Positions 1,602-62,759 of a stretch of DNA of 64,000 nt are shown here, piece by piece. The notes beneath the pieces were generated by a model, which was not told the DNA's origin, did no database searches, and saw nothing but the letters and a program-made list of their open reading frames with translations. Within the stretch, counting starts at the first letter, position 1; every line of letters starts with the position of its first letter. The stretch comes from Bryum argenteum (Eukaryota; Streptophyta; Bryopsida; Bryales; Bryaceae): NCBI GenBank assembly GCA_037043015.1, contig CM073326.1:62001-126000 (forward strand), written 5' to 3'. The position numbers and the translations under genes are program-made.

Positions 1602-1841
1602 TGTTGCGAAGTGTTCCTCAGTCGAGGAGGAGTGTTGTGATGAGCGACCTCGGAACCTTCTAGAACCTCTTACTTAGATCTTACTCTCTGGTTAGTTCGA
1701 GTTAAGTAAAAGTTTAAAGTAAAACTATCTAAAATTACCACCCTAACTGGGGTATATATATATATGTGAACCATATACAGGTTCTATGAGATCTTTCAAT
1801 ACCAGTTATATATTGCTTCCTCTTTCTTCTTGCTCACAACA
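1602..1841 (+). repeat. 5' LTR of copia copy 1
   Basis: Starts TGTTGCGAAG and ends CTCACAACA. It contains a short TA run (TATATATATATATG) that could act as a TATA region. It matches both LTRs of copy 2, and 3814-4049, closely. Confidence 0.88.
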
Positions 1842-3813
1842 CGTTATCAGCACGTGACTTTACCAGCCGAGAGTTTGATTTTAGTTTTCTTTTTGCTTTT
1901 CTACAATTTTTGGAGAGAGCTTGCATAGGGTACAAAGACCAGAGGACATCATTGCACAACGCATGCATGATAGAGTTTCAATCAGGGCTTGAATTTCTCA
2001 CCTTCATTTTTATATTATTATTATTCTTTTATATGCTTATGATGCACTATACTTTACCTTATTATTAAATTAGTTATATGGCCTAACTATAGAGAAGTAC
2101 CTAGTTTCTTGCTATGTGTGTTTCGAGTGACGAAAATGATATCAACCAAGAGATAACACACTCGAAGATTCAAAGGAGGAAACACTCAACAGTCAACGTG
2201 TGTAGTTGGAAGAAACGATCCTCCAACCTCCAAACATATCCTATTGTCGTGTCTTTAGTTTGGTTTTGTACTTGGGCGTATTTTACTGTCTAAGTCAGTC
2301 TAATTAGTCGGAGTGGTCCGGATCCACCTAAAATGTATGTTATGAGTGAGTCTTCTTGCATGTGCGGATCCTGGTTGAATTGTGATAACCTCACAAGCCG
2401 GAATTTTAATTCTAAGAGGTAAGTAACCTATGCCCTGCCCATATTGGGAGGATGCCCCACTGAAGGGAAGCCGGAATTTTAATTCCACGAGTGATACCTG
2501 GTTGAATTGTGACCTTGTCATGATTACCGGAAGGCGAAACTTGAAGTTTCGGGAGGGCCGGGCAAGAGTGGTTCTGCCCGGGGGATTCCCCCTCAGGATT
2601 GAGAGAGCTATGTATGCTCCTGATGCACCCCGGAGCCTGATCAGCTACCGGGATCTACGTGCAAATGGCATTCACGCTTCCACTGTGGACGGGGAAGGCG
2701 ATGATTATGATGATGCCATTGAACTGCGCAAAGACAAGCGAGTTCTGACTAGAGTGATACCGGGACCGACTGGCCTTTATGCATTACCATCATGGCGGAC
2801 GCGCCACGGGAATGTAATTTGGCGGTGCTTCCGAAGGCCTAAATGTGGCATAAGACGCTCCTGCATAGCAGTGGTAGCGATAGAACGAACAGCGATGAGA
2901 CTCGCTTGTTTAGCAGTGGTAGCGCATAGGCGCTCCTGCAATCTCATGGTACTTGTTGATGCCTTGGGGCGCGCCTGATATCATCACCTTGGGAGGTTCC
3001 ATACTCATCAAGGCTTCACATGCCGCGATGCCTTACCTTGCATCTTTGTGCTTTGTTGAGATTCTGTCTTTGTTATCCTCGCAGTTTATGTAGATGACCT
3101 CAATTTGGTGGGTACTGACGCATTGTGCACCGAGGTTGAGGAGCTTCTCACTACTCAGTTCGAGATGAAACTCCTTGGCCGCACCACGTTTTATCTTGGA
3201 CTTCAGGTATGCCATCGTCCCGACGGGAGTATTCTTCTCCACCAGGACACTTACACCAAGAAGTTCCTCAAGGCATTTAACATGTCCAACGCCAATTCCC
3301 TTTCGGCACCAATGATCGGGAGGAGCAGCACGAGAGACGACCCGTACCGACCTTGCGAGGAGGAGGAGAATGAGAAGGATGAGTAAAAGTACCTCGCTGT
3401 GGTCGGAGCGCTGCTTTACTTCGCTACTGCACACTATGGAGCTAACGGCCTCTATGAGATTCCGATCTCTTCTCTCAATCAATTGTTATGCAGATGAGAG
3501 CAAACTTGGAGTCGTCTATCAAGAAGTTACAGAAGAATTTCAACATGGCGAACGGCTGGAACAAGATTGAGAGGACCCCTATTGCCTTTGTGAGGAGGAT
3601 AAGGAAGACATAGACAAGCTGGTGGAAGGAGAACTTCTAGCGCTTCACAAGGCGTTCTATGAAGCAGTGTTATCAACATTTGTAATGGTAGTCAAAATCA
3701 AGCATAGCAGTTGTTAAGTTAGTGTATATTAATAGCGAACGATGACTTTACTCTTTTCACTTCAAAACATCGTGAAGTGTTTTTAACGAGGAAGATCATC
3801 GTTCGAGGAGGAG

Positions 3814-4049
3814 TGTTGCGAAGTGTTCCTCAGTCGAGGAGGAGTGTTGTGATGAGCGACCTCGGAACCTTCTAGAACCTCTTACTTAGATCTTACTCTC
3901 TGGTTAGTTCGAGTTAAGTAAAAGTCTAAAGGAAAAGTATCTAAAATTACTACCCTAACTGGGGTATATATATGTGAACTATATACAGGTTCAATAAGAT
4001 CTTTCAATACCAGTTATATATTGCTTCCTCTTTCTTCTTGCTCACAACA
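3814..4049 (+). repeat. 3' LTR of copia copy 1
   Basis: Same ends as the left LTR. It is preceded by the purine run CGAGGAGGAG, the expected polypurine tract position, and followed directly by the duplication CTTAC. Confidence 0.88.
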
Positions 4050-5048
4050 CTTACAGACCAACGTCGAGGTGGGCGGGGGCGATCCGCCTACTGGGAAGGG
4101 GTCTTTGGTAATGCCTTCAAACTCCACATCGTTCACTCCAGCGACCCGGTCAGGTCGTTGCAAGAAGTCGCAGTTTGGATTGTGGCACTGTAGATGTCCT
4201 ACACAGTTCGAGTATCGGAAAGACAAGCCTTGCGTATTGCTGATGTTGGTGGTCATCGTCCTAGTCCACACATGACCGTCATACCGTTTATCCATCCCCT
4301 CCATGGACTTCGCGACCTTGTGATTTGCAGACGGAATAGTGGGCGGAAAGATGAATAGAACATCGCCATTGAATGACGGAGGCAAGAAAGATACGTTGAC
4401 AGTGCGGATGGTTTTGAAATCAATTTTTTTGAGGAGAGTCTTGCTACTGGGCATTCTAGCAAGATTGCAGAGGGATGGAAGAATTTTTTTGGGTTTTAGA
4501 ATTCGCGATGAAAGTAAAGAAGGAGGGGTGGCTTCTAGGTAGTTATCCCTAATAGGAGGTTGCAATGGAATTTCAGACGGTAGACGACATGGCTGCAGAG
4601 GAGACTTCTTCTCGTCTTCTGATGAATCGGATATGTCAATGGTGACTTCCAGACCTGGTTCGACTTTGACACGAGCAAGAGCTGGAGCTACCGTGGAAAT
4701 AGTAGAAGAACTACGCGGGGTCAGGAGAACTGTTGAGGCGTTCATGACGGACTCCGTCAAGCCGTAGAGGCGATACTTTCCAGCTCTAAGCTTCCAGATT
4801 GTAGTATTATTCTCTAGAATGATTGGATCTACGACCATGGAGTACTGAACATGATTAGTAACAGGTTCAAGAACTTCCTTCTCTAACCACAGAGAAGATG
4901 CATCGTAGCCGAATCGAATTCCAAGCCACGATGCAGTGATCTCTACGACACCTTCAAGCCCCACGGACATGAAAATGGGAACATGTGCTCTCTGTGACAC
5001 AATCTCTACGATGTCTGAAGGAGCGGGTTCAGAGGAAGAGGAAACCAT

Positions 5049-5552: not shown

Positions 5553-6270
5553 ATGGACGCGATGAACATGGGGTCTGAGAGATCCAGTGAGAGTGTGCCT
5601 AAGAAGAAGAAGAAGAGAGGGGGTACTCGATTTAGTAACACGAAAGCGCGCAAACGAAGCGCATTGCGAAAGGTGGGTGCGCCTAGGTCTAGTGGAGATG
5701 AGGGAGGACCTGTTGATTTTGACTTGGACGATGTTGAAGTCGGGCCGCAGTACAGGCGGAATCTAAAAATGCGCTCGATCAATCTAGACACCGTGCCCGA
5801 GATTGTTGAGGAAAATAGATCTGAAGAAGTGAACGATTTCAGGAGATTCATTGATGAGCAAGAGCGCGGTGTAAGTGGATCGACATCGAGCGACTCTCTA
5901 TGTTACTACGTTGGAGGTGATGATACTGCGCAGGATTCCAAGAAGCAGGTATGGTACTATTCTTTATCTTTTGATGTGAAGTTATTTCTGTTTGGGTTTA
6001 ATGAGTCCAATGTTTGCATACAAGGGTGATGCCGAAGATGGTCTGAAGGACGATGACGTAGCTGATTTAAGTATCGACGATACGGAGAAAGATGTGAAGG
6101 ACTGTTTCGAGAACGAGATGCGGGAGGACGACAAGAAGACGTTGATTGACGTTGAAGAACATGAATATACCGGTGATTGCATGTTAGAGGAGGAGGTAAA
6201 CGACATGACGTTTTTTTTAAGTGTCATGAACGAGTCAGGCCACATTTTAGCATTCACCTCCATCGATTAG
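5553..6270 (+). CDS. MULE companion protein, copy A (two exons)
   Basis: Exon 1 is 5553-5948 (donor GTATGG) and exon 2 is 6025-6270; about 213 residues. I chose the ATG at 5553 because copy D starts at the same place (MDAxxMGS). Near the N-terminus is a basic run (PKKKKKRGGTRF, then KARKRSALRK) that looks like a nuclear-localisation or nucleic-acid-binding segment. The rest is acidic (DFDLDDVEV, DGLKDDDV, EEHEYTGD) and ends VNDMTFFLSVMNESGHILAF. No catalytic domain is recognised. The same gene recurs at 62760-63438, and a diverged version lies at 26076-26366, each time in the position divergent from a transposase or its remnant. It is probably the second gene of this MULE family; a DNA-binding or assembly role is only a guess. 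Confidence 0.72.
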
Positions 6271-6500
6271 ATATGCGATTATGTTTGGATGGTACGGAAT
6301 TATAGATATGGAGTAAGTATTAGAGATTAAAGAAAAATACGAACAAGTAATGACTATATGTTTGATATGTTGCGATACTTATAAATCACATCAATATGAA
6401 TTGCTGGGACTACGCGCGGGGATACTCTTGATCGGGAATACAGTGCAGTGTGTAAGTAAATTGATCGCACTGTATAATATTTAGCATTCTATTTAGAAAG
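6271..6500. other. 3' flank of companion copy A
   Basis: AT-rich sequence with recognisable homology to the 3' flank of copy D (63439-63570), for example AGATATGCGATTATGTTTG just after both stop codons. The match fades soon after the shared ATAAATCA. No gene was seen. Confidence 0.5.
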
Positions 6501-6509
6501 CCGGGCTGT

Positions 6510-6915
6510 AACATTAAACCTTGGTTGAGCCCCTGACCACGAACTCATATTCTTCCCCCGAGTTGATATCCGGCCCGTTGTGAAGCCCTCTCCACCGACC
6601 CCATCGCAACATGGGTTGAGGACCGGCCCGCTTCGAAGCCCTGCCCGCAGCGACCCCCTCCCCACCATGGGTTGAGATCCGGCCCGCTACGAAGCCCTGC
6701 CCGCAGCGACCCCCTCCCCATCATGGGTTGAGATCCGGCCCGCTACAAAGCCCTGCCCGCAGCGACCCCCTCGCCAACATGGGTTGAGAACCGGGCCGCT
6801 TGGAAGCCCTGCATGCAGCGACCCCCTCTCCGCCATGGTTGAGGACCGGCCCGGTTTGAAACCCTGCCCGCACCGACCTACTCCCCATTCTGGGTTGAGG
6901 ACCGGCCGGATCAGA
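6510..6915. repeat. ~56-bp GC-rich minisatellite, about 7 degenerate copies
   Basis: A unit containing GGGTTGAG..CCGGCCCG..AAGCCCTGCCCGCAGCGACCCC repeats with starts near 6613, 6669, 6725, 6780, 6833 and 6890, preceded by weaker copies. Open frames crossing it come from base composition. The DNA from 6916 to 7382 shows no recognisable feature. Confidence 0.8.
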
Positions 6916-7382
6916 GTCCGGATTGCTCATACCGGGCGTTGAAAGGCGTGGCGGGCATTCCGCTGAATGCATCCTCACTGGCCGGTAGCAGAGGGAGATT
7001 TGTCAAGCAAATGGGATGAGCCCGATCTGCGTATGCAGCGGCAGCGCCGCCTGGCGTTGTCGATTGGGGTGGGAAGATGCCGCGACTCCTTCAAAAAGAG
7101 CCTGCGAGGGCGGCGCAGCAGTGCCCCGAAATAGCAGAGGAGTAACCTGCCGTCAAAACCCTAGCCGAAATGAGATGCTTTCCGCCGAGCGATTTGCAGG
7201 AATCCAACCTTGTCAGAGGGGAGATCCAACTTTAGAACGAAGATGAACATGGTAGTCCGTAATGTAGAGGATAGCGATAGTCCTGTACGACTTTGATTGT
7301 TTTCTTAACATTTTTAAAATTATTCCATGTTCAGTATCGTGGGAGCGAAGGAGCTGCAGTTGTAGTTCAAGCATGAGAGATC

Positions 7383-10300
7383 ATGGCAAATCTTGTGGAG
7401 AAGGAGGTGCCAGTGGTCCAACGTGAAGAGAACGCGGAGATCATTCCAGAGAATGTGAGTGCAGATTCGGAGTCAAGCGTCTTTTCTGAGTTTTACAGGG
7501 AATACGCTCTCCAGTACGCTCCAGAAATGATAACGAAGAGTCGTGAAGAAAACGAGGCGTGGTTTGCGAAGGGATTTAAGGTAAGATTCACCTGCTACAA
7601 TTTGCTACTTTTGGAGTCAAAGGACTCACTGCCATCTCAGTGGAATGTACGACTTCGTTGTTTGTTTGCATCACTCTTCTCTGAAGAGGGAATTTTTTTT
7701 TTCAAAAGTCGATTCTTTCCGTCGTCTTCGTGATCTGCTTCCAATGGAAATGCACGACTTGTCGGTGATCTGTTAACGGTGTTTTGTTGAATGAGTTTCC
7801 ACCTGTTTTCCTGTTGTGCCGAATCTTCCAAATCTTGATCCTCCCCCGGCCAGCACGCTTGTATGCTGGACATGGGACTGCAGGGTCCTGTTATAAACCG
7901 GCACCTTGCATCAGCTGCTGAAGCCTTGTTGCCGATGAAGGCTCCCATCTGCATTTTGAAGCGGGCCAGAGGCTTGAGGTGCTCGGAAAGGAGCGAGTAC
8001 TGGCTGGGTTGCATCAGGCAATTCGGCATTATTTTGTTTTGTTCTCAAACTTTTCTTCTTCCCGGGCTAGCATGAATGTGTGTTGCACCTACGATTGCAG
8101 GGTGCTGCGTTACACCGGCCCCTCCTGCCTCGCATCAGCTGCTCACACTTCATTGCCGATGAAGGCTCCCTTCAGCATTTGAAGCGGGCCTGAGGGACAT
8201 TCTCCTTGCTCTGAGTTGCTCAGAAAGGAGCGAGTATTGGCTGGCTTGCATAATGAAAATCGGCTTTTTTTTATTTTGTTGTCAAACTATTCTTCTTCCC
8301 GGGCTAGCATGAATGTGTGTTGGACAAACGATTGCAGGGTGCTGCATTACCCCGGCCCTCCTGGCTCGCAACAGCTGCTCACACTTCATTGCCGATGAAG
8401 GCTCCCTTCTGCATTTGAAGCGGGCCTGAGGCACATCCTCCTTGCTCTGAGTTGCTCAAAAAGGAGCGAGTATTGGCTGGCTTGCATTAGGCAATTCGGC
8501 CTTTTTTTACTTTGCTGTCAAACTGATCTTCGTCCGGGGCTAGCATGAATGTGTGTTGGACGAACGATTGCGGGGTGCTGCATTACACCGGCCCCTCCTG
8601 GCTCGCATCAGCTGCTCACACTTCATTGCCGATGAAGGCTCCCTTCTGCATTTGAATCAAGCCTGAGGCACATCCTCCTTGCTCTGAGGTGCTCGGAAAG
8701 GAGCAAAAATTGGCTGGCTTGCATCAAACATTTCGGCTTTTTTTTAATTTGTTGTCAAGCTTTTCTTCTTCCCCTGCTAGCATGGTTGTGTGTTGGACCT
8801 CCGAATGCAGGGTGCTGCGTTACACCGGCCCCTCCTGGCTCGCATCAGCTACTCAAACCTCATAGCCGATGAAGGCACCCTGCTGTGATTGAAGCGGGCC
8901 TGAGGCTCATCCTCGTTGCTCTGAGGTACTCGGGTGGGAGCGTGAGGGTGCTGGCTTGCAGCAGGGGTCGAGCTCGTGATGAGCGAGTGATGGATGGCCT
9001 GTGAGAGCGTGTAAGCTCTCTTTTGCTTAAGTGTTACTAATAATGGATTTTTATTAATGAATTGTTTGCAAACCATGACATCTTGAGGTAATTTGATGAA
9101 TTTATGATAATTGAGTTTTGAATGCAATAGGTATATTAAAGATTAGTTGTCGCAAGGCCTTTGGTAGATTATTTAGCATGAATTTTGAGCTTAGTTTAGA
9201 TTAGGAGTGATTGGTTCGATAAGGAAGGACTAGAGGAGGTAAAAAGCCCCCTAGTGGATCCTTGGTTCGATAAGGAAGGACTAGAGGAGGTAAAAAGCCC
9301 CCTAGTGGATCCTTGGTTCGATAAGGAAGGACTAGAGGAGGTAAAAAGCCCCCTAGTGGATCCTTGGTTTGATTAGCGTAAAATTAGGGACTTGGAGTTG
9401 GGTTAGAAATTTCTACCATGGGCCTTGTCTGAAGTAGTCTTTGATGTCCTTGTTGTGTTTGAAATTTGGTTGTTGAGAGATTCATTCATCTAACCTTGTG
9501 GTAGCGTGTGGGAGCTACATCCATTGATGAAGTCGTTGATAGGATGGAGGCTTCAGACGGAGCGCGTGAAGTGGCGGTCATTCATCCACGCCTTAGTTAG
9601 GGCTTAGGCCTTAGTTAGGGTTATGGTGAGCCGCCTCTTTGCGGCTCCCATTTAATCTTAATAGCTTGTTTCCAAGCTATCTTCATCTCTTCCATTTCCT
9701 CTTAGTTTAGGTTAGAGTAGGAGAAGGAAGGCCTTGGGCCTCCTTCTCCTCCATTTTGTTCACCTACCTATCCATCTATGTAGTTAGGAGGAGGAAGGCC
9801 ATGGGCCTCCTTTTCTCTTTTGTTCACCTCGCTTCATCTTTCTTGAATTGTTAGTAGTTAGGAGAAGGAGAGCCCTTCTCAAAATGATCTTGTTGTTGAA
9901 GTGTTAGTAGTTAGGAGAAGGAGAGCCCTTCTCAAAATGATCTTGTTGTTGAAGTGTTAGTAGTTAGGAGAAGGAGAGCCCTTCTCAAAATGATCTTGTT
10001 GTTGAAGTGTTAGTAGTTAGGAGAAGGAGAGCCCTTCAAAATGATCTTGTTGTTGAAGTGTTAGTAGTTAGGAGAAGGAGAGCCCTTCTCAAAATGATCT
10101 TGTTGTTGAAGTGTTAGTAGTTAGGAGAAGAGAGAGCCCTTCTCAAAATGATCTTGTTGTTGAAGTGTTAGTAGTTAGGAGAAGGAGAGCCCTTCTCAAA
10201 ATGATCTTGTTGTTGAAGTGTTAGTAGTTAGGAGAAGGAGAGCCCTTCTCAAAATGCTTGTCTTGCCTCACTCATCTTCCTCCTCCTTATTGAGTTCCTT

Positions 10301-11637
10301 TGTTATTAAGATAAGAGCTTGTTCTTGCCCTATGAAAGCCAGCCAGATTGTTTCCCCCATAACTCACTCGATTTTTCTTCAACTCCTCTGAGATTTTTAC
10401 ACTAGATAGAGCTCCAGTAGATCTTTCCAATGGTATAAAGCATGCTCAATTCCGAGTTGTAGAGAGGGAGATATGAGCTTCCAAAGTTGGGGTGTTGAAA
10501 AAGTTTTCCGCCCCGGCAGTGGCAAAAACCGCCACAGTCAAACAGCAATCAGTCTTAGCTCGTTGATCTTCTGCCTTTGAGATTTTAGGGGCGTGTGCAC
10601 ATTGAGCTTAGCTTTCCAAAAAGCTATGGCACGCCCCATTTGGACCTAAGACGAAGGAATGGCAATCAAAAGAGTAGAGACCACTTCCAAGCCATCCGGC
10701 CGGTGGTTTTCTTCTTCTTCTTCCCTATTTCCTTGTCTTCTTCTTGTCTTCCTTCTTCCCCTCTTCTTTTCTCATCTAATCTTGCTCTTCAAAACCCCTT
10801 GTGACCGAATGCCACCTCGTGGTGGTTTTTGGGTTCACATGGCCCCTGTGTCGATCTCGTGTGTGACAAACTTCGCGGATTGCTGGAAAGTAGCCCAGAC
10901 TTGCGTCGACGCAAGTTTGGGTGAAATGGGAGCAATTCGGCCTTTTTTTAATTTTGTTGTCAAGCTTTTCTTCTTCCCCTGCTAGCATGGTTGTGTGTTG
11001 GACCTCCGAATGCAGGGTGCTGCGTTACACTGGCCCCTCCTGGCTCACATCAGCTGCTCAAACCTCATAGCCGATGAAGGCACCCTGCTGTGATTGAAGC
11101 GGGCCTGAGGCTCATCCTCGTTGCTCTGAGGTGCTCGGGTGGGAGCGAGAGGGTGCTGGCTTGCAGCAGGGGTCGAGCTCGTGATGAGCGAGTGATGGAT
11201 GGCCCCTGTGTCGATCTCATGTGTGACAAACTTCGCGGATTGCTGGAAAGTAGCCCAGACTTGCGTCGACGCAAGTCTGGGTGAAATGGGAGCAATTCGG
11301 CCTTTTTTTAATTTTGTTGTCAAGCTTTTCTTCTTCCCCTGCTAGCATGCTTGTGTGTTTTACAGGAATTTTCGTACTAAAATTTTGCATTTGTATGGCA
11401 GGATCGTTTGAAGCATGCAAGAGTACACCAAGATGAAGACTCAGATGGAGATAGTGATTTATCCACTATCAGAGACAATGTTTTGGCTTACGTGGAGTCG
11501 CGTCGATTAGTCATAGCGTTGTCATCTGTTCCTGAAACTCCACCTCTTGCCTCCCCTGTCCGTCACACTCCACGTGGTGACGTTGATCGGAAAGCACAAG
11601 TGGTTAACATGCGAATTAGAACGAATGAGGCCTAAGC
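7383..11637 (+). CDS. Small acidic two-exon gene of unknown function
   Basis: Exon 1 is 7383-7580, ending AWFAKGFK before GTAAGA. Exon 2 begins at 11402 after TATGGCAG and runs to a TAA at 11635-11637, giving about 144 residues. The splice is phase 0. The protein is acidic at first (VSADSESSVFSEFYREYALQ) and has DEDSDGDSDL after the splice. No domain is recognised. The same frame continues for 27 more codons past the TAA (ARRIKEKDLARLAPRRSPRL...) to a second stop near 11719. That tail is basic and looks coding-like, so the first stop may be a recent nonsense change or an error. The 3.8-kb intron is filled with satellite and an LTR-like insertion. The gene could also be the 5' end of the downstream methyltransferase-like gene, but I found no good donor in exon 2. 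Confidence 0.45.
7850..8994. repeat. ~237-bp satellite, left block
   Basis: Tandem units marked by GCTAGCATGAATGTGTGTTG, with starts near 8066, 8303, 8539 and 8777 plus a diverged first unit. Each carries GATTGCAGGGTGCTGC, a CACCGGCCCCTCCTGG segment, GCCGATGAAGGC and a T-rich end. Open frames inside the units have no coding support. Confidence 0.85.
9211..9363. repeat. 51-bp minisatellite, 3 perfect copies
   Basis: Unit begins TTGGTTCGATAAGGAAGGAC and ends CTAGTGGATCC. Three copies appear identical, and a partial fourth starts at 9364. Confidence 0.93.
9850..10255. repeat. ~53-bp minisatellite, 8 copies
   Basis: Unit begins GTTAGTAGTTAGGAGAAGGA and includes GAGCCCTTCTCAAAATGATC. There are eight near-identical head-to-tail copies with no unique spacers. 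It lies inside the solo LTR-like insertion. Confidence 0.93.
10845..11345. repeat. ~237-bp satellite, right block
   Basis: Continuation of the satellite beyond the insertion. A ~110-bp segment (CTGTGTCGATCTCGTGTGTG... to CAATTCGGCC) occurs twice, near 10845-10945 and 11204-11300, so part of the array is duplicated. Exon 2 of the small gene follows at 11402. Confidence 0.8.
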
Positions 11638-11858
11638 TCGTCGTATCAAAGAAAAAGATTTAGCTAGGCTTGCACCAAGACGTTCTCCGCGACTTGTGAA
11701 AATGTTTCAATCTTCTTAAATGTAGCGTTTCATTATATGATATTATATCATATACTCTATTACAAAATTGTTATAAATTACTTTTTATATATTATTGTTC
11801 ATTTGACATTTTCTTATTCATCTTGTTGTAGGTTGTACTTGATTTTTTCCATTTCCAG

Positions 11859-14800
11859 ATAAACATAGGTCAAGTCGAGCTCATTCAAGATGAAGAAGCT
11901 AACCTGCCTCTTCATAATCCTCTACAAACTGTATCATCGGTCGAAGATGAACTCATACTTAATAGTGTGAGAATTATTGAAGACTTCGGAAATGAAGTTC
12001 CGCAGGAGACTCCTTCGGAAACTGATCGCCAACCTCTGGAAGGCGAATGCAATGCAGTTTCAGCGGACACTCATCTCGAAGCTGCAGAAATTCAATTACC
12101 GTCCCCGGACATCGACCAATCCCTCTCGGATGACGAAGAAACTCCATTGCCAGGAGGTGTGAACGTTGGAATCCTTCACATGCCCCAACATCTTCAGAAC
12201 AAAGACCCCGACTGGAGTGCGAACGAGATGCGTATGCTGCACAAGAGTGATTCGATTGCAGTCATCAACAGGTTACGCTTCAAACCTGTTAAGAAATCTC
12301 GTATGCTAATTCCACTTTGCCGTCTCGTTTGCTATCCGAAGGTTCGCCCGATCTTAGAACAAGACGTCCGGAAACTCGAGAATGAGTTCAATAAAGGATA
12401 CCGGGAAGGCGACCGGGTGATGTACATGTCTCCCTTTGATAGGAAAGGCCGAGAAAAAATTGTTGACACTCAAGACGAACTGTGGACGAACCCGCTCTGG
12501 AATGCCGCGAATGAAGAGTTCGAGAGTACGCTGCGATCCGATCCTGATCTTCATGACCTTAGCGGGAAATACTTTTATGTTTATGAAGGCAACCACCGTG
12601 TTACAGCATGGATGCGTCATATTGAGAGGTACCACAAGGATGATCTCTCGTGGTACATTTCGGTTGACTGCATCGTTCTCGATGCCCGTGGAGAAAGCAA
12701 TGTCCTTCTTGATGCTATGAACGACATAAACTGGTAAGTGACTGTCGCATTTCTTGCTTTGATTTTAATTCGTCTTTCTGTCATATACAATTTTGCTCAT
12801 CTCTCGATCCCTTTTGTAGGTCCACTGAACATGATCATGTCGAAGACAGTTTGTGTGCCAAACTGCAACGCATGAGAAAGTTCGGTAAATTGAAACTCGA
12901 AGATTTCAAGGACCTCATTTTTGCAGAGGATTACAGGATCTGTAAGAACGCGAAAGCAAAGAAGGAGACTTGGTATCCCGTCACTATAGATGTTTTTGTA
13001 AAATTTCTATACGCGGTGAGTTTCACTATATTTGTGCTTGACTCTTCTTCTTCATATCTACATTAGACAACTTATGACTTGTATTCTCATTGATTTATAG
13101 AGGAGGTTAGCGAAAGCATCGGACGATGCTAAAGCTACGTACTACGCCACCGTTCCAAAAGACAAGCAAACAGGTCCGGGAGTTTGGAGTGCTATGGATA
13201 ACGCCATCAAGGCTGAGATCAAATCGATTCGTGGGAAGAATTTCGACAAGATGGTCGCTGTGGCTAATAACAAACTTGGGAAAGTTTTTGCAAAAGAGGT
13301 ATAGCCGTATAGGTGGCTGCATTCTTTAATTTCAGAGCATTATTTTCAACTTTCTGATTTATTCCTCATATTGAAATTGTGAGTTCCATGTGCAGATTTA
13401 TTCTCATTACAGCCAAAACTTGAAACCCGACATGACAATCGATCGATTACACATGGTAGCCACTACCAATGTTCACTTTGATTTCAAAGGAAAGTGGCTG
13501 CAATGGTGGAACTCACCAAACGAGGTTCGACGATCATTTCGGTTCCCGGAAGAACGCCCAATGAAGGATAAAGCTTTGGTGACATTTCTACATTGGGCTT
13601 CATTCTGGGCACAGGTAATTTGCAATTACGTTCCGTGATTACAATATTTCAGTTCATTTGTTAAATTAAAATCTAACATGTTTGTTGTATTATCAGCTAG
13701 AGCAGTCACTTGAAAGTGAATTGCAGTATCTCGTTGAAAACGAGAACCTCAACATTGAGTGGTCTAGTGTTGATCTCAAGCCATCAGCGTATGTCGAAAA
13801 GTGGAGGGTGCTTTATTGGGAGAAGGCATTCAACAGTTACCTTGGTCCTAATGCAAGCCCGAAGTTCATCAAAGGCTCAGATCTTCAAAAAATTACGGGA
13901 GGCAAAGTTACAATTAAGAGGCTTTTATTCCGGTATGTATCATATTTCTTATAAAATACTAATTACAGTGATCCGCCGTATTCTAATTTTTCTTTTATAG
14001 GTACCTAAAACAAGAGCTCGTTGCGAAGGGAGCATTAGCTTCGTTCTCCATTCCAATGGAGTTCGAGGACGTCTCAGTCACGAATGATCCCCGGAGTTTT
14101 TTCTCATCTGCCCAACAAGAGCGGTTTACAAACTCCCAATTGACGACCGGTGGATGGTTCCTTGAGTGCGACGACAACTACGTGCACAAGGAGGAGAAGC
14201 ATCTTCTTCGAAACCTCGCTTCGGACCCACATGACTCCGCAACAATGGACATTGATGACGCTGACGATGACGATGACGACCTCTCCATTTTACCAGTCGC
14301 ACCAGATCCTATCTCTTCTCCTTCTTCACCTGTTGCAGTGCCCAAGTCTCGTGCAAGCAGGAAGCGAGGCAACGTTGTTGCGGAGCCGGTTGTTGAACTT
14401 GACGAAGATTCCGAAGATATTGCTCCTCTCTCAGTAGACATTGCAGGGCATGAAGATGCTAATCTTACTCAGGCGTCAGCGGGAGCCGCAATCAATACAA
14501 TACGACGCGGTGGAAGATTGACTCAACTTTCTACAAGTGGACTTACGAATGCTGGGTCCCCACCTCAGTCATTCACCGTCGACCACAACTCGCAGCAGTC
14601 TCCACGTCGCCTCAGCCAGGCGATATTCGTCAGACGCCCACTTCCTAAACCAAATCACATTGGCAGCAGCTCGTCGTCGAAGATATCTGTCACACTGCCA
14701 ATGTATCTGGAGAAGGGGAACATTGGAGATTTGGTACACCAGTCCTCGAAGACTGCAAAATGGGATTTGCAAATCCTCGATATCGTCGAGCACATCAAGA

Positions 14801-16195
14801 AGGTTTTATTTCTTCCCTTTGTCTTTCATGAACTTCTTCTTCCGTTTTGTACTTCTAAATCTATTAGCCACTTTCTAATTTTTTACTTGTATCTCAGATT
14901 GGAAAAGACCGCAAGTACCCGTGTTCGGCGATGGAGTATGAACCCAAGCATCCAGGGATTGATCTCATTTTTGCAGATGCTCCCGAGAACTTGCCTGTAC
15001 CTGGTGTGTCTCCAACAGAAATTCCATCTTGGAACCGGCGTGACAAAACCTACTTTGAGAGTCTCTTCGTGTTTGCCGCGTATCATTTGACAGACGTTGG
15101 AGCAATTCTTCTGATGCATCCCAAATGTCGCAGAATCGAGCGTACTCTCGATGCTGAGTCGCATACATACAGTTTTCGTCTGGTTCGAGACTGGTGGGGA
15201 TATAATCCCCTCCCTATGGCCTCTACCGTACCCAAACCGAAAGAGGTACGGAACAAATTCTTGTTTTCAATTTCACGATTTATTAATATTTCCTTCTATG
15301 CTTCTATGTTAACATATTTGTACATGTGTTTTGCAGACTCACTGCTTCCATATCAATGTGTATGTTCGCAAAGAGTTTGTTTCGAAGTTTCAAACTCGGC
15401 AAGTCGCACACGCATACGCGGGTGAGGCAATCGTACCTGATGAGGAAGACCATCTCTGTAACTTTGCTGAGAAAGAAACTTTGCGTTATCGTTCGGACGG
15501 TACGCCGTGGCGAGGCTCACGAGAGAAGGACCCCTCTTTTATTCAGTGTTTTGTCGATTGTCTCACGGACGAGGGGGGTATAGTGTTCGATTGGAGTGCA
15601 AGTACAGGTACTGTTTCCGTACACTCTATATTAGAATTCGTTTCCACATTTCGCATTTTTAATGTTGGTTCCCGATTATATAGGTGCATCTGTGACTGCT
15701 TGCGCGCGCTCCAACCGACACCTCATCGCTATGGAACCTGACGAAGAGATCTTTGATGGTGTACTCGCGGATTACAAGAACGGACCTTCCCGTGATGAGG
15801 AAAGTGGAGAATCAGCCCCCCCCCTGACTATGACTCTGACGAACCGGTCGTGAAGAAACCACGAAAGTTCATTGGTGTGTATTACCATCTTGTATTCTCT
15901 TTTTCAATTTTAAATTACATACTTATAAATCGGAAGGACTGACTTTCTTTGCAATTTTAGGATCGCAGGTCTAAAAGAGCGATTGATTCGCAACGCTCAT
16001 CTCTACAAGAGCCCTCCATCGAAATTCACTCTACCATCGTACGCTGAGCGTCTTGCTCAAGAGTTTGTTCAAGCTCCATCTCCCATTTTGTCTGACACTC
16101 CACGTCGACGTTATAGCAAGAGTGTACTTAAGTTTATAGACTTTGAGGCAGATCAGTGTGATCAGCACTTTAATGGTACTACACCGTCTGCCTAG
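11859..16195 (+). CDS. Ten-exon gene: ParB-like domain plus beta-class DNA methyltransferase-like domain
   Basis: Exons with GT/AG borders: 11859 (or 11832)-12733, 12820-13015, 13101-13298, 13396-13614, 13697-13932, 14001-14802, 14898-15245, 15337-15607, 15684-15874 and 15969-16195; roughly 1,190 residues. Residues ~240-255 hold YEGNHRVTAW followed by a hydrophobic strand, like the GxxRxxA box of ParB/Srx domains. A Ser/Asp-rich linker fills most of exon 6. Exon 7 has DLIFADAPENLP at 14964-14999, in the place of the DPPY motif of N4/N6-type methyltransferases. Exons 8-9 have VFDWSASTG and then ASVTACARSNRHLIAMEPDE, resembling the SAM-binding motif I. Motif IV before motif I is the beta-class order. 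DAPE instead of DPPY suggests altered or lost catalysis. A run of nine C near 15816-15824 leaves the last ~100 codons ambiguous: ten would keep the frame and match the next splice phase. The true 5' end is unknown. Confidence 0.55.
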
Positions 16196-16416: not shown

Positions 16417-16854
16417 CTAGTCGTAGTTGGAATCACTCGCAGAATCACTGCTGCTGCGATCACCAGCTTCTGAAGTGAATTCCACGAAATCCTCCCAAAT
16501 CGTCTGCAGAGGCACTATCTCGTACTTGTTGCAGCTGAAGCGCCCCCAATTTTTGACCGTCATGTCCTTCAGGTAGTCGTCTCCCTTGTTCCTTGCGATA
16601 CACGCTGCACACCACGCCCTGTTACAATAATCACACGGGATCAAAAACTGATTTCCCCCACACCAATTGCATTGCTCATCATCGTACTGGGCGTTCTTCG
16701 TGAATACAACGTCGTCCAACATAAGTTTGCACGAAATGCATATGCCAACACCGAGACGAGGATGCTCCAACAAACAAGCACGGATTTTTTTAGCTCCACA
16801 AGCAGTGCATGAATACAAGTACAAAGGATCAAAATCGGCCGAATGCCCCGCCAT
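16417..16854 (-). CDS. ADD (ATRX-DNMT3-DNMT3L) domain protein
   Basis: 145 residues from the ATG at 16854 (MAGHSADFDPLY); an upstream in-frame ATG at 16953 would add 33 residues. The Cys pattern is that of an ADD domain: a GATA-like pair set (SCTACG..., GICISC) and then a PHD-like part (EQCNWCGGNQFLIPCDYCNR, AWCAACIARN). The spacing and the DEQC-W-C...CD-C...CxxCI...NxG signature match ATRX. A WGRFSCNKYE segment ends the domain with only one Cys where ATRX has two. The tail is acidic and Ser-rich (SSSDSASDSNYD). ADD domains read histone H3 tails with unmethylated K4. There is no helicase or methyltransferase in the same ORF, so this is a free-standing reader or adaptor. It is convergent with the methyltransferase-like gene, about 220 bp away. 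Confidence 0.72.
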   Translation of the reverse strand: MAGHSADFDPLYLYSCTACGAKKIRACLLEHPRLGVGICISCKLMLDDVVFTKNAQYDDEQCNWCGGNQFLIPCDYCNRAWCAACIARNKGDDYLKDMTVKNWGRFSCNKYEIVPLQTIWEDFVEFTSEAGDRSSSDSASDSNYD

Positions 16855-16954
16855 TTGTTCCACAACAGTGCAAGAGAGAGAGGTTTCAAAAAAGAGATGG
16901 CCAACACAATGCATTGAGATGCTGGCTTTCTCCTCCTCTGTTCTTATATGCAAG

Positions 16955-17581
16955 GAAAAACTCTGGATTTTCCATCAAACCTCACCAATATGATCACCCA
17001 AAACCGGCAGTGCAGTCAGATTGGGACACCGCAAAGATCTTGTCGAATCGCACACCGCACACCGCATTTTTTACATTTTTTGTCGCCTTCAAACTCCACA
17101 AATAAAAACCAACAGTTTCGGACATTTTTTTACATTATTTTTCAGCTTCTGAACTCCACAGCGGCCCCGACAGTTTTGGACAATTTTTTTCATTTTTTGT
17201 CAGCTTCTGATTTCCAGAGCGGCACCGACATTTTGGTCATTTTTTTACATTTTCTGTCATCTTCTGAACTCCACAGCGGCACCGACATTCCAACAAATTA
17301 GAAATCGAGACAAAAATTCACTTACACTGTCATGACAATGGACGTGAGTTCTCATGAACACCATCACGGCATTTTTCTTACATTCTCGTGAGTAATCCAA
17401 TCACTACAGCATCCTTTTCTCCCATCTCTACTAGCACATCACAATGAGTACCGACAATTCACAGCTTCATGGAATGTATTCACCCCTTAACCGACACTCC
17501 ATATGACACAACCCATTCAATCTCATGACGTCCAACATCATAATACATGAGCACCGACATTGAGCATGAGCATGAGCACCG
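16955..17581. other. Repeat-rich upstream region of the ADD gene
   Basis: Contains the 65-bp repeats at 17060-17290 and then AT-rich DNA. From about 17550 it carries short CACCGACATTGAGCATGAG-type repeats that continue on the other side of the copia element. No gene was seen. Confidence 0.45.
17060..17290. repeat. ~60-65-bp degenerate tandem repeat, 4 copies
   Basis: Each unit has a T-rich run (TTTTTTACATTTTTTGTC), CTTCTGAACTCCACAGCGGC and ACCGACAnTTT. Copies differ at many sites. Confidence 0.7.
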
Positions 17582-17821
17582 TGTTGTGAGCAAGAAGAAA
17601 GAGGAAGCAATATATAACTGGTATTGAAAGATCTCATAGAACCTGTATATGGTTCACATATATATATATACCCCAGTTAGGGTGGTAATTTTAGATAGTT
17701 TTACTTTAAACTTTTACTTAACTCGAACTAACCAGAGAGTAAGATCTAAGTAAGAGGTTCTAGAAGGTTCCGAGGTCGCTCATCACAACACTCCTCCTCG
17801 ACTGAGGAACACTTCACAACA
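17582..17821 (-). repeat. LTR of copia copy 2 (3' side)
   Basis: Begins TGTTGTGAGCAAG and ends CACTTCACAACA; reverse complement of the copy 1 LTR. The purine tract complement CTCCTCCTCG follows at 17822. Confidence 0.85.
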
Positions 17822-19773
17822 CTCCTCCTCGAACGATGATCTTCCTCGTTAAAAACACTTCACGATGTTTTGAAGTGAAAAGAGTAAAGTCATCGTTCGC
17901 TATTAATATACACTAACTTAACAGCTGCTATGCTTGATTTTGTCCGCCATCATAAATGTTGATAACACTGCTTCATAGGACGCGTTGTGAAATGCTAGAA
18001 GTTCTCCTTCCACCAGCTTGTCTATGTCTTCCTTATCCTCCTCGCAAAGGCAATAGGAGGCCTCTTCAATCTTGCTCAAGCCAATCATGAATGCTGAAAT
18101 TATGATGATGTTCGCCATATTGAAATTCTTCTGTAAATTCTTGATAGACGACTCCAAGTTTGCTCTCATCTGCATAACAATTGATTGAGAGAAGAGATCG
18201 GAATCTCATAGAGGCCGTTAGCTCCACAGTGTGCAGTAGCGAGGTAAAGCAGCGCTCCGACCACAGCGAGGTACTTTTGCTCATCCTTCTCATTCTCCTC
18301 CTCCTCGCAAGGTCGGTACGGGTCGTCTCTCGTGCTGCTCCTCTCGATCATTGGTGCCGAAAGGGAATTGGCGTTGGACATGTTAAATGCCTTGAGCAGC
18401 TTCTTGGTGTAAGTGTCTTGGTGGAGAAGAATACTCCCGTCGGGACGATGGCATACCTGAAGTCCAAGATAAAACGTGGTGCGGCCAAGGAGTTTCATCT
18501 CGAACTCAGTAGTGAGAAGCTCCTCAACCTCGGTGCACAATGCGTCAGTACCCACCAAATTGAGGTCATCTACATAAACTGCGAGTATAACAAAGACAGA
18601 ATCTCAACAAAGCACAAAGATGCAAGGTAAGGTATCGCGGCATGTAAAGCCTTGATAAGTAAGGAACCTCCTGAGGTGATGATATCAGGCGCGCCCCAAG
18701 GCGTCAACAAGTACCATGAGATTGCGGGAGCGCCTATGCGCTTACCATCACCGAACAAGCGAAGTCTCATCGCTGCTCGTTCTATCGCTACCATCGCTAT
18801 GCGGGAGCGTCTTATGCCACATTTAGGCCTTCGAAGCACCGCCAAATTACATTCCCGTGGCGCGTCCGCCATGATGGTAATGCATAAAGGCCGGTCGGTC
18901 CCAAAGATCCATCACCATCAAATTCACCTTCTCCATCAACAATGGAAGCGTGAATGCCATTGGCAAGCGAGCCCGGTAGGCGATCGAGGCTCGGGGTGCA
19001 TCGAGCAGCACATAGCTCTCTCAATCCGAGGGGAATCCCCGGGCGGACCACTCTTGCCCGGCCCTCCCGAAACTTCAAGTTTCGCCTTCCAGTAATCATG
19101 ACAAGGTCACAATTCAACCAGTATCACTCGTGGAATTAAAATTCCGGCTTCCCTTCAGTGGGGCATCCTCCCAATATGGGCGGGGCATAGGTTACTTACC
19201 TCTTAGAATTAAAATTCCGGCTTGTGAGGTTATCACAATTCAACCAGATCCGCACATGCAAGAAGACTCACTCATAACATACATTTTAGGTGGATCCGGA
19301 CCACTCCGACTAATTAGACCGACTTAGACAAGAAAAATACGCCCAAGTACAAAACCAAACTAAAGACACGACAATAGGATATGTTTGGAGGTTGGAGGAT
19401 CGTTTCTTCCAACTACACACGTTGACTGTTGAGTGTTTCCTCCTTTGAATCTTCGAGTGTGTTATCTCTTGGTTGATATCATTTTCGTACCTGAACACAC
19501 ATAGCAAGAAACTAGGTACTTCTCTATAGTTAGGCCATATAACTAATTTAATAATAAGGTAAAGTATAGTGCATCATAAGCATATAAAAGAATAATAATA
19601 ATATAAAAATGAAGGTGAGAAATTCAAGCCTGATTGAAACTCTATCATGCATGCGTTGTGCAATGATGTCCTCTGGTCTTTGTACCCTATGCAAGCTCTC
19701 TCCAAAAATTGTAGAAAAGCAAAAAGAAAACTAAAATCAAACTCTCGGCTGGTAAAGTCACGTGCTGATAACG

Positions 19774-19980
19774 TGTTGTGAGCAAGAAGAAAGAGGAAGC
19801 AATATATAACTGGTATTGAAAGATCTCATAGAACCTGTATATGGTTCACATATATATATATACCCCAGTTAGGGTGGTAATTTTAGATAGTTTTACTTTA
19901 AACTTTTACTTAACTCGAACTAACCAGAGAGTAAGATCTAAGTAAGAGGTTCTAGAAGGTTCCGAGGTCGCTCATCACAA
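19774..19980 (-). repeat. LTR of copia copy 2 (5' side)
   Basis: Begins TGTTGTGAGCAAG, adjacent to the PBS complement; ends at CTCATCACAA before CACCG. Confidence 0.8.
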
Positions 19981-20955
19981 CACACCGACATTGAGCATGA
20001 GCATGAGCACCAACATTGAGCATGAGCATAAGCACCGACATCTGAAGGTCAAAAAATTTCTAATAGTGTGATATTATGGAATATTTGATGATATTACATA
20101 AATTTGTTGATATAATGGAAGATGTGGATGATATTACAAAACATGTCATTTAAGTATCTCAAAACGGTGTAATGTAAGCCATGCATGCCTTTAACGGTGA
20201 CGTCAGCCCTAATCTTTATGTAACTCCTTAAACTCCAATATCAATGCATCGATGTATGTAAATTTTTAAATACTAAACTCATTGTACACTAAAAGTTTTT
20301 TTGTTTCTATGAGAGTGATTGAAGCTTGCCAATGTCGGTAGGGGCTATAGTCCAGTAATTGTATAGCTCAGGATAGCTGCTTTAGAACGCGGTGCAACGC
20401 TCACACGAGGCCGAGGAGAATCGAACTCGGACCACTACAATGCCACGTGAATGTCTTTCTGTACACCTTACAAGGTGACACAGGAAGACGACCTGTAGTT
20501 ATAAATTTCGGTTTATATGAACTGAAGCATCTACCTATAATTCTGGCAGTTGTAATAGGAAATTGATGACGTCAGCCCTAATTAGTGTCTAAATCTTATT
20601 ATTGATGAATTATTGATTACCTAAAGGGCCATCCCAAATTATGGTTTAGATTTTGTATATGATTTTAATTGTATTGGTTACACATGATGATGCCAGCCAT
20701 AATTTAATTAACTTTTATTTAAACTTGCAAATGTGGATAATTTATGAAATATTGTATAACCTCTAAACCATAAAAATAAATGGATAAAGGACCTATACCC
20801 ACGGTGTTGGGTTTTTTTTTTTGTCTAAAAACGACCATGTCAAAAATTCAGAACCACCCATCCCATGGTAATAGGGCTATTAACTTTTAAATTTTTTTTG
20901 CAATGAGTGGTAATAGGGTCTTAAACTTTCATGAAAAAAATAATAATTCTGTCAA
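19981..20955. other. AT-rich intergenic DNA
   Basis: Starts with CACCGACATTGAGCATGAGC repeats that match the left flank of copia copy 2, then AT-rich DNA. A 100-bp GC-richer island near 20335-20450 has a weak tRNA-like look but does not fold as a tRNA. No coding sequence was seen. Confidence 0.4.
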
Positions 20956-21102: not shown

Positions 21103-21999
21103 CTGCACCCAAAAAAAATATAGAGTTTTAGTAATAATCATGAGTGCACACTGGCAAAAAAGAATAATTCACACAACAAATTAAACCATGTTCAGACTGA
21201 AACAAAAAGAGATGGTTGAATTTCGAGCTCAAGAATGTAGAGTAACATATCTACTAAATATTTCTTCTAGGACTCAAAGATTCAAATAGTAGGTATCGGA
21301 AACTTTACAAACAAGAGAACATTCAAAACCACTATAGAAACATTGTACGCATAGTTGAGCCCAAGGAAAGCCAGATTTTACCCACTTGCCCAACATGTCA
21401 CCTACCCAAACAAATAAGCATCGAATATCATACTGGAGATTCAATTAAGAGTTTGAGGTTCTTTCTATGACAATTGGAAATGCACATTATTTCAAACATA
21501 AACCGTTTAGCAAACCCACTTCCGTAGAAGCCTATGATAATTAATTTCAATTATTTCAAACGATTTTCCACATTTACAAACTCTTGATCTAACTAGTTTA
21601 GCCCCTACCATTTTCTTGATGCAAAATAATCTAACACACAAAATTTGACCTTCTTCTACTTTAGGCTTAAAGAATCTCAATCTAAAAATTATTTAGAAGA
21701 TTTAACCGTAGGATCTGAAATTGAACTTGGCATTCTACTCACATCTCAAATATGAACCGTTGATTTTTCTTCATTTGTGAGATTATAATGATCAAAGTTG
21801 GCTGAAATTTTCTCCTATATACGCCCACCCTCGTATACGAGGGTACCTACCACAAGTGGAGTGATGCCCAATTCCAAAGCCCATTGTTTCAAATGGTTAC
21901 CAACATTTACAAACTTTTGATCTAACTGGTTTAGACTCCCTCCCACCCTTGTATACGAGGATCCCTACCATAAGTGGAGAGATGCTTAAGCACAATCAA
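21103..21999. other. AT-rich DNA with the first two palindrome copies
   Basis: No coding evidence. It holds CCCTCGTATACGAGGG at 21828-21843 and a variant at 21946-21960. Confidence 0.45.
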
Positions 22000-22127
22000 G
22001 GCTTCTTTTTTCGTTCGCCAGATTCCCCTCTTGGCCAGTAACATATCTTCCTTCCAGAATATGACCTAACCCATGTTTGACAAAGAAAGGGAATCATCGT
22101 TTTGTTGCCAAAAAAAAAAAAACGCTG
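22000..22127 (+). repeat. Left inverted repeat arm
   Basis: Pairs with 25004-25129. Includes TCTTGGCCAGTAACATATCT and CCTAACCCATGTTTGACAA and ends at a poly-A run plus CGCTG. Confidence 0.85.
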
Positions 22128-22989
22128 AGCACGATGCCCATGCCCAAAATGTAATCAAAAGAATAGACAAAAATATGATCAACAACCGAATTCTTTACCC
22201 AACCTCGTACACGAGGCACCCGTCGAAACTCTATTTGCTATCCTTCTTTGTAAACGAAGTATAATCAAAATCGGTTCAATAGAGAAACATTTTAATGCCT
22301 ACCTTACCTCAAAAACAATGGAACGAAATGAATGCACCAAAAACTACAATAATTTGCAAGAATGGTCAATTTAATCATAATGAACTACAAGAATATCTTA
22401 AATTTAGAAGATTTAAGATTTTGAGAGCATAATGAAGATTAAATAGTAGCAGATATGACTCCCATTACTACAACCTCGTATACGAGGTCACCCTGGTTTG
22501 ACCACCCTCATGTCTGCTTGACAAAATCAAGAAAATAAACAAAGATCACAAAGACCGATGCCGATTCCCCTGAAATCCTCGTACACGAGTTCATGCCCCA
22601 TTCATTAATCGGGCCCACAAGATGAAAGGATCAGACAAGCAGAAACATATGTGTGGGCATCCTCGTACAGGAGGAAGCCCTCAAATTCTGATTTCCCACA
22701 TAGCAGCAACCATTTGATCCCACACTCGTACGCGAGGGCACCCCTTCACTCGAAGTTACCACGAAATTTCACGACCAGATCAACAAAAACACGAAGATGA
22801 GTAGATGAAAACGATCACAATTATTAACAGTATCACCACCTTTTATTGCTGACTATGCCCTCATGTCATGAAGACGAGTAGACGATGACCAGCCTCCAAC
22901 ACTCCCTCGTGTACGAGGGTACACGTACAAGTTCATGAATCCAGGGTGTTCTGTTGACCACCACCAAAATCACAATTTCGGGGGAACTT

Positions 22990-23110
22990 GAACAGGATGA
23001 TCATCACGAAGAACAAATATCGGGGGACCTTGAACACGATGATCATCACGAAGAACAAATATCGGGGGACCTTGAACACGATGATCATCACAAAATCACG
23101 AAGAACTTGA
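22990..23110. repeat. ~48-bp repeat, 2-3 copies
   Basis: Units of ATATCGGGGGACCTTGAACA followed by CGATGATCATCACGAAGAAC are repeated head to tail, with a diverged copy on each side. The region is rich in GATGATCATC. Confidence 0.75.
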
Positions 23111-25003
23111 ACACGATGATCATCAGAAACAACCGCTTGACTACTATCGTACACGAGGGAGCCCTTAACTTGGCTACTCTCCACACAGCAGCAAAATGAT
23201 GAACAAGTTGATCACAATGATCAGACCACAATCACGATGATCTAGACCACGATTATGATCATCTAGACTACGATTACGATGATCGGTTAACCCTTCAGAG
23301 ATGCTGACCACGAATCTTAACAGTCTCCAAGCCTCCCTCGTACACGAGGGTAGAAGTAGAAATTCTAGAACCCGGGTTTAGATCAAACACGAGGTTTACA
23401 TCTTACCCACCCTCGTACACGAGGGCACCCCTCATTCGCTGTTCCACACGAACAACTTGATCAGGTTGATCACGAAGTCCTCGAACTGGTCTTCGAACTG
23501 GTTGAATTCTCCAGGTTTTACGTCTACATATACCATCGGGACTCCAGCTTGGCCGCTTCTAAATGGACAAAAGATCGAAGTATCTCTGTTGCGTCACTGG
23601 ACCTCTCAAGAAACGAAGGAAGGAACAGGAGCGTTGATCGACCATCATACTCTCCCACCAAATTGGCGTTTGGATCCCACTTTATCAAGAAACTGAGTCC
23701 CTCACATTCTTACAGACTGGTAAGATATCATTTTAATGCCTACCTTACATCAAAGGTCTTGAGCCCTTAACTTGGCTTTTCTCCACACAGCAGAAGAATG
23801 ATGAACAAGTTGATCACAATGATCAGACCACGATCACGATGATCTAGACCACGATTACGATGATCAGTCAACCCTTCAGAGATGCTGACCACGAATCTTA
23901 AAAGTCTCCAAGCCTCCCTCGTACACGAGGGTAGGGGTAGAAATTCTAGAACCCAGACGACACCAATCGTGTTCATCGCAGACTCACGTTTGGTTGCTGA
24001 GAGAGATTAGAACAACAAGTTCGACGTCAGATGAGGTAGCAGTGCAAGCATACTTTACGGCATGTTGTCTTTAATAACATCAAGGCTCACACATTCAAGC
24101 TTGTACCGCTGAACCCCTGAACCCTTGCAAAATTTTGTTGTAAGAACGACTCGATGAACGATGAATATGCGACACTGCCATCGCCGTGACATCCATGACC
24201 ACTACCCTGAGGTGCAAAAGAATTGTACCGACTTAAATCTCCGATAGAAAGTTGTTCAGTAGGAAGCTCCGTCGTAGTTCTAAGACTGCTACATAACCCG
24301 TTTGGTCAACTTGCAGAATGAAAGCGTGAGGTCAGACAATCCTACTTGCAACTTCCTTGATCCTACTCAAAAGCCCAAACCCTTACACAATTGAGCCGAT
24401 GAGAGATGGATTTCCGACACTCGGAATTTTAGACGTAACACCCGATTCAGCATTGCGATTTCACGGACCTTAAACCCTTAACCGATGCATGGAGAACATT
24501 CTATCAATTTTGTTGTTGAAGGAAGAGCGGTTAATGTCCCCGACGATTACCAGGAACAAGATCACGAAGATTGAACAGGACCACGACGAGCATGATCACG
24601 AAGAGCAGTTCATGAGGGTTTAGGTTGATCAGAATGTAGAAAGGTATGAACAGGTCGATCTTACCTCTTCTTGTGTGTCTGTCTCGGTCTCCAATTTGGC
24701 GAGGATACTCTCTCTTCCTACTTCAATCCAAATGGGCAAAGTTTTCCCACAAGTTCTTAGATGCCCCCAAAACGAATCCTGTGTCTGAATGCTCACCACG
24801 TCGACGTCTGCATCCTCCCTTCCGCGCTCCAACATCGTGATCTCCCCTCCGACTCGGGTTCGTTCTCCAACCTGAATCTCTCCTCCAATCGGCCCAGCCA
24901 TTACTGTGAGGATAACTTGGATCGGAAGAGGAAAAAACAACTCCTCGCTTCACAAAACAAGAGAGGAAAAAAGCATGCTCCAGCGACGGCTTAGGGTTGG
25001 CAA

Positions 25004-62254: not shown

Positions 62255-62759
62255 CGAGAGATCCGACGAGCATCAACAGTGGATGTGAGAAAAGAATACG
62301 AACTAGGTATGATGCAGTTTTTAAGAAGAAATTGGTCGCCGGAAGTTGTAAAGAATTAAATAAGTACAGTAGATTGGATAAATTTGACAATTACAATGTT
62401 GGAGAGTAAATGTTGAATACTATTAGGCAATTGTAATTAGTGTCATGAATGCGCAAGTGTTGGTAGTCTCAGATTTGGAAAAGCGACGGCGGCCGTCATT
62501 GTCAGAGCATTTGAATCTAAATTCGAAAAATAGATTAGCATCTCATGTCAGAGACTGTCACATTTGGTAGCCCATGAGCCGTCATAGTTGTTGCGATCAT
62601 TAATGATCAACTGCGAAAATTACGTTAGTGGGCGGCTTGTAAATTTTGTATAAATAGGAGTAGGACGTCGATATGGACCTTTCCATTGTTCGTTTAGATG
62701 GTGTTGGTAAGGTATTGAGACGTTCTGTTCCTTGTTCATTTCAATAGAATTTTGACGTG
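62255..62759 (+). promoter_or_regulatory. Promoter region of companion copy D
   Basis: Matches 5049-5552 of locus A from about the transposase start codon onward, but no transposase lies to its left. TATAAATAGG at 62649-62658 is about 100 bp upstream of the ATG. Confidence 0.5.

Follow-up and report, generated by a model that had tools for sequence, protein, structure and literature searches.

A candidate transposon accessory gene in Bryum argenteum encoding a ParB-like region and a predicted pseudo-methyltransferase

Main finding

A split gene on the plus strand at positions 11859-16195 of the analysed window (64,000 nucleotides of Bryum argenteum contig CM073326.1, positions 62,001 to 126,000) is read here, with a probability of about one half, as an accessory gene carried by a large DNA transposon of the cut-and-paste type and as a non-catalytic variant of the ParB-methyltransferase proteins published from algae. 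The evidence consists of the exon structure, the profile matches of the C-terminal domain, the residues at the aligned catalytic positions and the neighbouring genes.

Gene structure and reading frame

Splice sites and frames were read from the sequence. Exons 1 to 9, up to position 15820, join into 1,094 codons with no stop; all nine acceptors are AG, all eight donors are GT, and the phases are consistent throughout. At this base composition, and with codons taken as independent, a stop-free run of this length has a chance of about 10^-25. The eight introns measure 68-97 bp each, none is divisible by three, and three of them lack a stop in the incoming frame. GC content is 31% in the introns against 48% in the exons, and 56, 39 and 48% at the three codon positions of the exons. 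From these features 11859-16195 is predicted to be a real gene, or to have been one until recently; its preliminary description as an intron-rich eukaryotic gene is supported by the exon order, the GT/AG ends, the phases and the open frame.

Exon 1 (11859-12733; AG before, GT after, frame open) encodes an acidic leader followed by the ParB-like region, with the string YEGNHRVTAW at 12582-12611, within the range 12580-12611 given for it earlier. The start codon is ambiguous, since the first in-frame ATG lies at 12180 and the 107 codons ahead of it are open. Exons 2 (12820-13015), 3 (13101-13298), 4 (13396-13614), 5 (13697-13932) and 6 (14001-14802) were placed by splice sites and phase. Exons 3 to 5 carry a middle region with no known domain (no Pfam match for exon 3), which ends in exon 6 and is followed there by a long low-complexity linker. 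Exon 7 (14898-15245) contains the equivalent of motif IV, DLIFADAPENLP, and the string WWGYNPLP, both located from pairwise alignments; the former had been reported at 14964-14999 and is present, but its true place is 14961-14996, three bases away. Exon 8 (15337-15607), recognised by the profile match of the X-I half, holds motif X and the first part of motif I (VFDWSASTG). The remainder of motif I, ASVTACARSNRHLIAMEPDE, begins at 15684, so that an intron does split the motif as had been noted; sequence and translations place it in exon 9 (15684-15874) together with LIAMEPDE and a run of nine C.

At this run (15816-15824) the frame shifts. The incoming frame meets a stop shortly past it, and the other frame leads to the GT at 15875 and then to an in-phase join with exon 10 (15969-16195), whose frame is open to the stop codon TAG. 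The change of frame is either an assembly error or a lesion. Of the ten exons first proposed, nine thus join openly with GT/AG ends, and the tenth is in phase only with the frame that follows the C run.

Assignment of the C-terminal domain

A profile was built from phage enzymes collected as follows: relatives of one tblastn match (86 confirmed, 80 kept) and three named phage loci gave 83 loci, in which 85 reading frames were matched; 82 of these were 180-420 aa long, and the 71 distinct ones formed the profile. The 252-residue methyltransferase region scored 25.1 bits against it (best of 2000 shuffles 4.2), and the half carrying motifs X and I scored 26.9 bits when taken alone (best of 2000 shuffles 3.3). 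By itself, the motif IV half was not significant (-2.6 bits, with 486 of 2000 shuffles scoring higher), which leaves the X-I half to carry the assignment. A profile-profile comparison with hhalign gave a probability of 93.9% over 58 columns. Further matches were obtained with the PHROG DNA methyltransferase family phrog_3008 (E 2.3e-5) and with a PADLOC Type II methyltransferase (E 1.2e-4). In the profile search that had been proposed as a check, Pfam N6_N4_Mtase (PF01555) matched the motif I segment only, at 16.4 bits (E 0.0092) and thus below the cut-off of 26.7, and the ParB-like region had no Pfam match; the NCBIfam matches of the methyltransferase region, at E 0.088 and 0.15, fell far short of the cut-offs.

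A tblastn search of the region against 50,697 phage records yielded matches to 96 records at E 10 or below, and in three these spanned at least 80% of the 252 residues (E 0.02, 0.03 and 6). Pairwise alignments to phage enzymes are collinear, running IV - NP.P - X - I, and pair IDLIFADAPENLP with strings of the DLIVTDPPYNLG type and WWGYNPLP with WHKTNPMP; their E-values are not independent, because the starting phage enzymes came from the same query. The proposed place of the motif IV half fits its position in these alignments and the exon order, with IV before I. A second profile, made from 73 phage enzymes that are fused to ParB, scored 12.7 bits with the methyltransferase half, and none of 2000 shuffles of that half came as high (best 3.4). 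Single shuffles of the unrelated middle region and of the X-I half nevertheless reached 12.3 and 10.7 bits with the same profile, for which reason its score was not counted as proof.

On the strength of the X-I half, the C-terminal domain is predicted to be a relative of the beta-class amino-methyltransferases. The earlier assignment to this class accordingly holds through that half and for the region as a whole, and the motif IV half does not sustain it by itself.

ParB-like region

The ParB-like region was placed by eye at about 12290-12690 in exon 1. PHROG 1033 (ParB-like) matched 40 residues around YEGNHRVTAW (12567-12686, E 0.0074); in the control, two of nine shuffles matched at all, the better with E 0.029. 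Pfam matched neither this region nor the middle region. Phage ParB fusions were collected for comparison (177 frames matched, 154 of them 360-520 aa long, 73 non-redundant). The ParB-domain profile of these 73 scored -1.2 bits, and in two runs 961 and 974 of 2000 shuffles did as well; with the motif segment, the phage-fusion profile was equalled by 98 of 2000. With a broader phage ParB profile, 67 of 2000 shuffles did as well as the whole region and 19 of 2000 as well as the motif segment. Across the eight combinations of segment and profile that were run, 19/2000 was the best result and 974/2000 the worst. A phage tblastn search with the region gave two matches to tail proteins at chance level (E 0.9 and 1), and a single-sequence AlphaFold2 model covering a portion of exon 1 had a mean pLDDT of 36.7 and was too poor for a fold search.

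The ParB-like domain of the preliminary description therefore has the PHROG match in its favour and the lack of a Pfam match against it, and the phage ParB profiles are not decisive. We regard the label as a reasonable lead, suggestive in itself and made likelier by the published algal proteins. PMC5512222 ascribes nuclease or nucleotidase activity to ParB domains in a number of contexts, and DNA nicking to a ParB domain joined to an adenine methylase.

Residues at the catalytic positions

Residues were compared by adding the query to the alignment of the 71 phage enzymes. At the aromatic position of motif IV, which is Tyr in 69 of the 71, the protein has Glu, and the proline ahead of it (63/71) is replaced by Ala, so that DAPE stands at the site aligned with the catalytic (D/N/S)PP(Y/F/W). 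Motif I, F-x-G-x-G in its usual form, reads SASTG, with Ser both for the Phe (60/71) and for the first Gly (70/71). A Lys found in all 71 phage enzymes is Gly here. Retained are the Asp of motif IV (D in 36 and S in 33 of the 71), its second proline (69/71), the Asp (71/71) and the second Gly (70/71) of motif I, and an acidic Glu (67/71). The replacements in motif IV are probable rather than proven, since the columns were placed through an alignment of weak similarity.

Because both the aromatic position of motif IV and the first Gly of motif I appear changed, the methyltransferase half is predicted to be a non-catalytic pseudo-methyltransferase. The suggestion, made when the gene was first described, that DAPE hints at a non-catalytic role would agree with the changed letters of both motifs.

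Neighbouring genes

A transposase-like gene lies upstream on the minus strand (3-5048, as 5048-4050 and 1617-3) and is interrupted by a repeat that has inserted at about 1600-4050. A second copy occurs at 27049-29075; its N-terminal part (27049-28044) is 59% identical and its core 80% identical. Over 330 codons of the N-terminal part, dN is 0.31 and dS 1.95 (near saturation), which indicates constraint. Searched as a chain of 706 aa, the protein matched no Pfam family; for the 196-aa core alone the sole matches were Smr (E 0.088) and DUF7042 (E 0.86), and the core's structure, predicted from two sequences, was too poor for a fold search (pLDDT 42.7). The N-terminal 333 aa matched no solved structure. 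A SWIM-like exon at 61094-61813 stayed below threshold (E 0.15). A Mutator-like label was considered and set aside, as it would rest on generally known signatures and on this sub-threshold match.

Between the transposase-like and the methyltransferase-like gene lies a lysine-rich gene on the plus strand (5553-11635), with four exons in phase (5553-5948, 6025-6195, about 7380-7580 and 11402-11635). It is divergent from the transposase-like gene, with 505 bp between the start codons. Its last exon has an in-frame TAA at 11633-11635, after which the frame is open to a second stop at 11718. An array of tandem repeats of about 53 bp (9815-10318) falls within its long third intron as modelled. At 62258-62907 there is a second copy of the gene's upstream region and first exon, 82% identical in DNA, and a relative of exons 1 and 2 is found at 62760-63366; for the exon 1 pair, dN is 0.12 and dS 0.20 over 119 codons. 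A weak relative (E 1.7, with DNA matches of 19-26 bp at E 0.001-0.06) and the second transposase-like copy are likewise arranged divergently.

To the right of the methyltransferase-like gene, and convergent with it, lies a gene for an ATRX-type ADD zinc finger (minus strand, 16420-16914, 165 aa from its ATG). It matched ATRX ADD structures in phmmer (E 1.6e-13, to 2lbm), which places it among the ADD fingers; Pfam ADD_ATRX gave E 0.0011 and 0.0037, under the curated cut-off. The finger is encoded alone, with neither helicase nor methyltransferase, near a transposase-like gene. A literature search for ADD or ATRX together with transposons found no paper; further reports may be in print. Beyond the ADD gene lie tandem repeats (17066-17290; three 57-bp copies and related 25-bp units), a possible end region of the element.

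Comparison with known systems

In its passage on the Ectocarpus transposon Sola1-1_Ec32, PMC12477816 describes an accessory protein of 1,104 aa with a ParB-like and an N4/N6 methyltransferase domain, reports similar proteins from transposons of green and red algae, and suggests that they bind and epigenetically modify their own element; Iyer 2011 and Petroll 2025 are cited there. The Bryum protein resembles this one, as it is described in that passage, in length (at least 1,094 aa), in combining a ParB-like with an N4/N6 methyltransferase-type region and in that a transposase or transposase-like gene nearby runs on the other strand. The changed motifs IV and I of the Bryum protein are a possible difference, and the likeness is drawn from the published description.

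The 73 non-redundant phage ParB-methyltransferase fusions resemble the Bryum protein in the two predicted domain types and their order. They are, however, single reading frames of 360-520 aa (the length limits used), and all 59 with a recognised motif IV have DPPY where DAPE stands here; their profiles gave 12.7 bits for the methyltransferase half and -1.2 bits for the ParB-like half. No confirmed relatives of the ParB-like, methyltransferase or middle region were found in IMG/VR, nor of the 1,094-aa chain in GTDB genomes, by scans that detect close relatives, and the PDB held no match for either domain. These comparisons do not establish a bacterial or phage ancestry of the direct kind first supposed: the stand-alone phage profile scored higher (25.1 bits) than the ParB-fused one, and the published parallel comes from transposons of algae.

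METTL14-type pseudo-methyltransferases likewise combine a methyltransferase fold and a changed catalytic motif with a binding role; unlike the present protein, they belong to the MT-A70 family, act on RNA and partner an active enzyme. Among eukaryotic proteins, the N4CMT of bdelloid rotifers is also an amino-methyltransferase of the permuted PF01555 type whose gene has introns, but according to the relevant part of PMC8885841 it carries a catalytic SPPY, shown activity and a chromodomain and has no ParB-like region, in place of the DAPE and ParB-like region found here. Uptake of cytosine methyltransferases by retrotransposons of dinoflagellates and charophytes is described in PMC5890265.

Interpretation

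In the favoured reading, the element would comprise the upstream transposase-like and lysine-rich genes along with this one. We infer this membership from the neighbourhood. Against it, neither ends nor a target-site duplication of the element were found in the 64-kb window, its left end lies outside, and the methyltransferase-like gene, like the ADD gene, occurs once in the window; at 19.9-26 kb, the second element lacks any trace of the methyltransferase-like gene. The ParB-like half would bind DNA. The methyltransferase half would retain its fold, transfer no methyl groups and help to bind the DNA of its own element, and the bound protein might mark the element or shield it from host silencing, perhaps in cooperation with the neighbouring ADD histone-reader protein. 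If so, the erased methyltransferase motifs in an otherwise open gene would suggest that DNA binding, and not methylation, can be a selected function.

The same accessory protein might instead be catalytically active, methylating N4 of cytosine or N6 of adenine to mark its own element, as the suggestion of binding and epigenetic modification in the Ectocarpus passage (PMC12477816) would have it for related proteins. The retained Asp of motif IV, the Asp and second Gly of motif I and the acidic Glu agree with activity; the loss of the motif IV aromatic residue and of the first motif I Gly, both near-invariant in the 71 phage enzymes, makes it improbable. Alternatively, the changed motifs, the C-run frame change and the lysine-rich gene's stop codon could all be signs of decay in a copy of a transposon enzyme that was formerly active. 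Besides the frame change at 15816-15824 and the TAA at 11633-11635, the repeat inserted into the transposase-like gene speaks for this. Nine exons that stay open for 1,094 codons with intact splice sites would be unlikely, however, if constraint had long gone, and the C-run length difference could also be an assembly error, which leaves decay an unlikely explanation.

A host gene of bacterial or phage origin, lying outside any transposon and having gained its introns later, is quite improbable. It would account for the ten exons and for the finding that, within the libraries searched, the methyltransferase half has its detectable relatives among enzymes of phages and bacteria. The collections were viral, prokaryotic and plasmid records, without algal genomes, so nearest matches among phages say little on origin; the upstream transposase-like gene and the published protein with both domains, which according to PMC12477816 sits in an algal transposon, both argue against a host gene.

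The accessory-gene reading allows a speculative and rather doubtful extension, a DNA transposon with its own chromatin kit. In it, an erased writer, the DNA-binding pseudo-methyltransferase, and a reader of histone H3, the ATRX-type ADD protein, would act together in recognising the element and would either shield it from silenced chromatin or direct it into such chromatin; the adjoining ADD reader would tie such elements to histone-based silencing.

Further repeats in the window

One repeat is present in two opposite copies, at 1600-4050 (in the transposase-like gene) and at 17580-19986 (just past the ADD gene), with pieces that are 94-100% complementary. Between pieces of the second transposase-like gene, 30200-60640 is occupied by repeats arranged head to tail, one about every 10.66 kb, in three copies for some parts and two for others; many are 94-100% identical, and they appear gypsy-like by eye. 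These are either a tandem array formed via shared LTRs or an effect of assembly. At 21824-23938, nine scattered 27-bp repeats, 64-100% alike, are arranged around a core resembling CTCGTAYACGAG.
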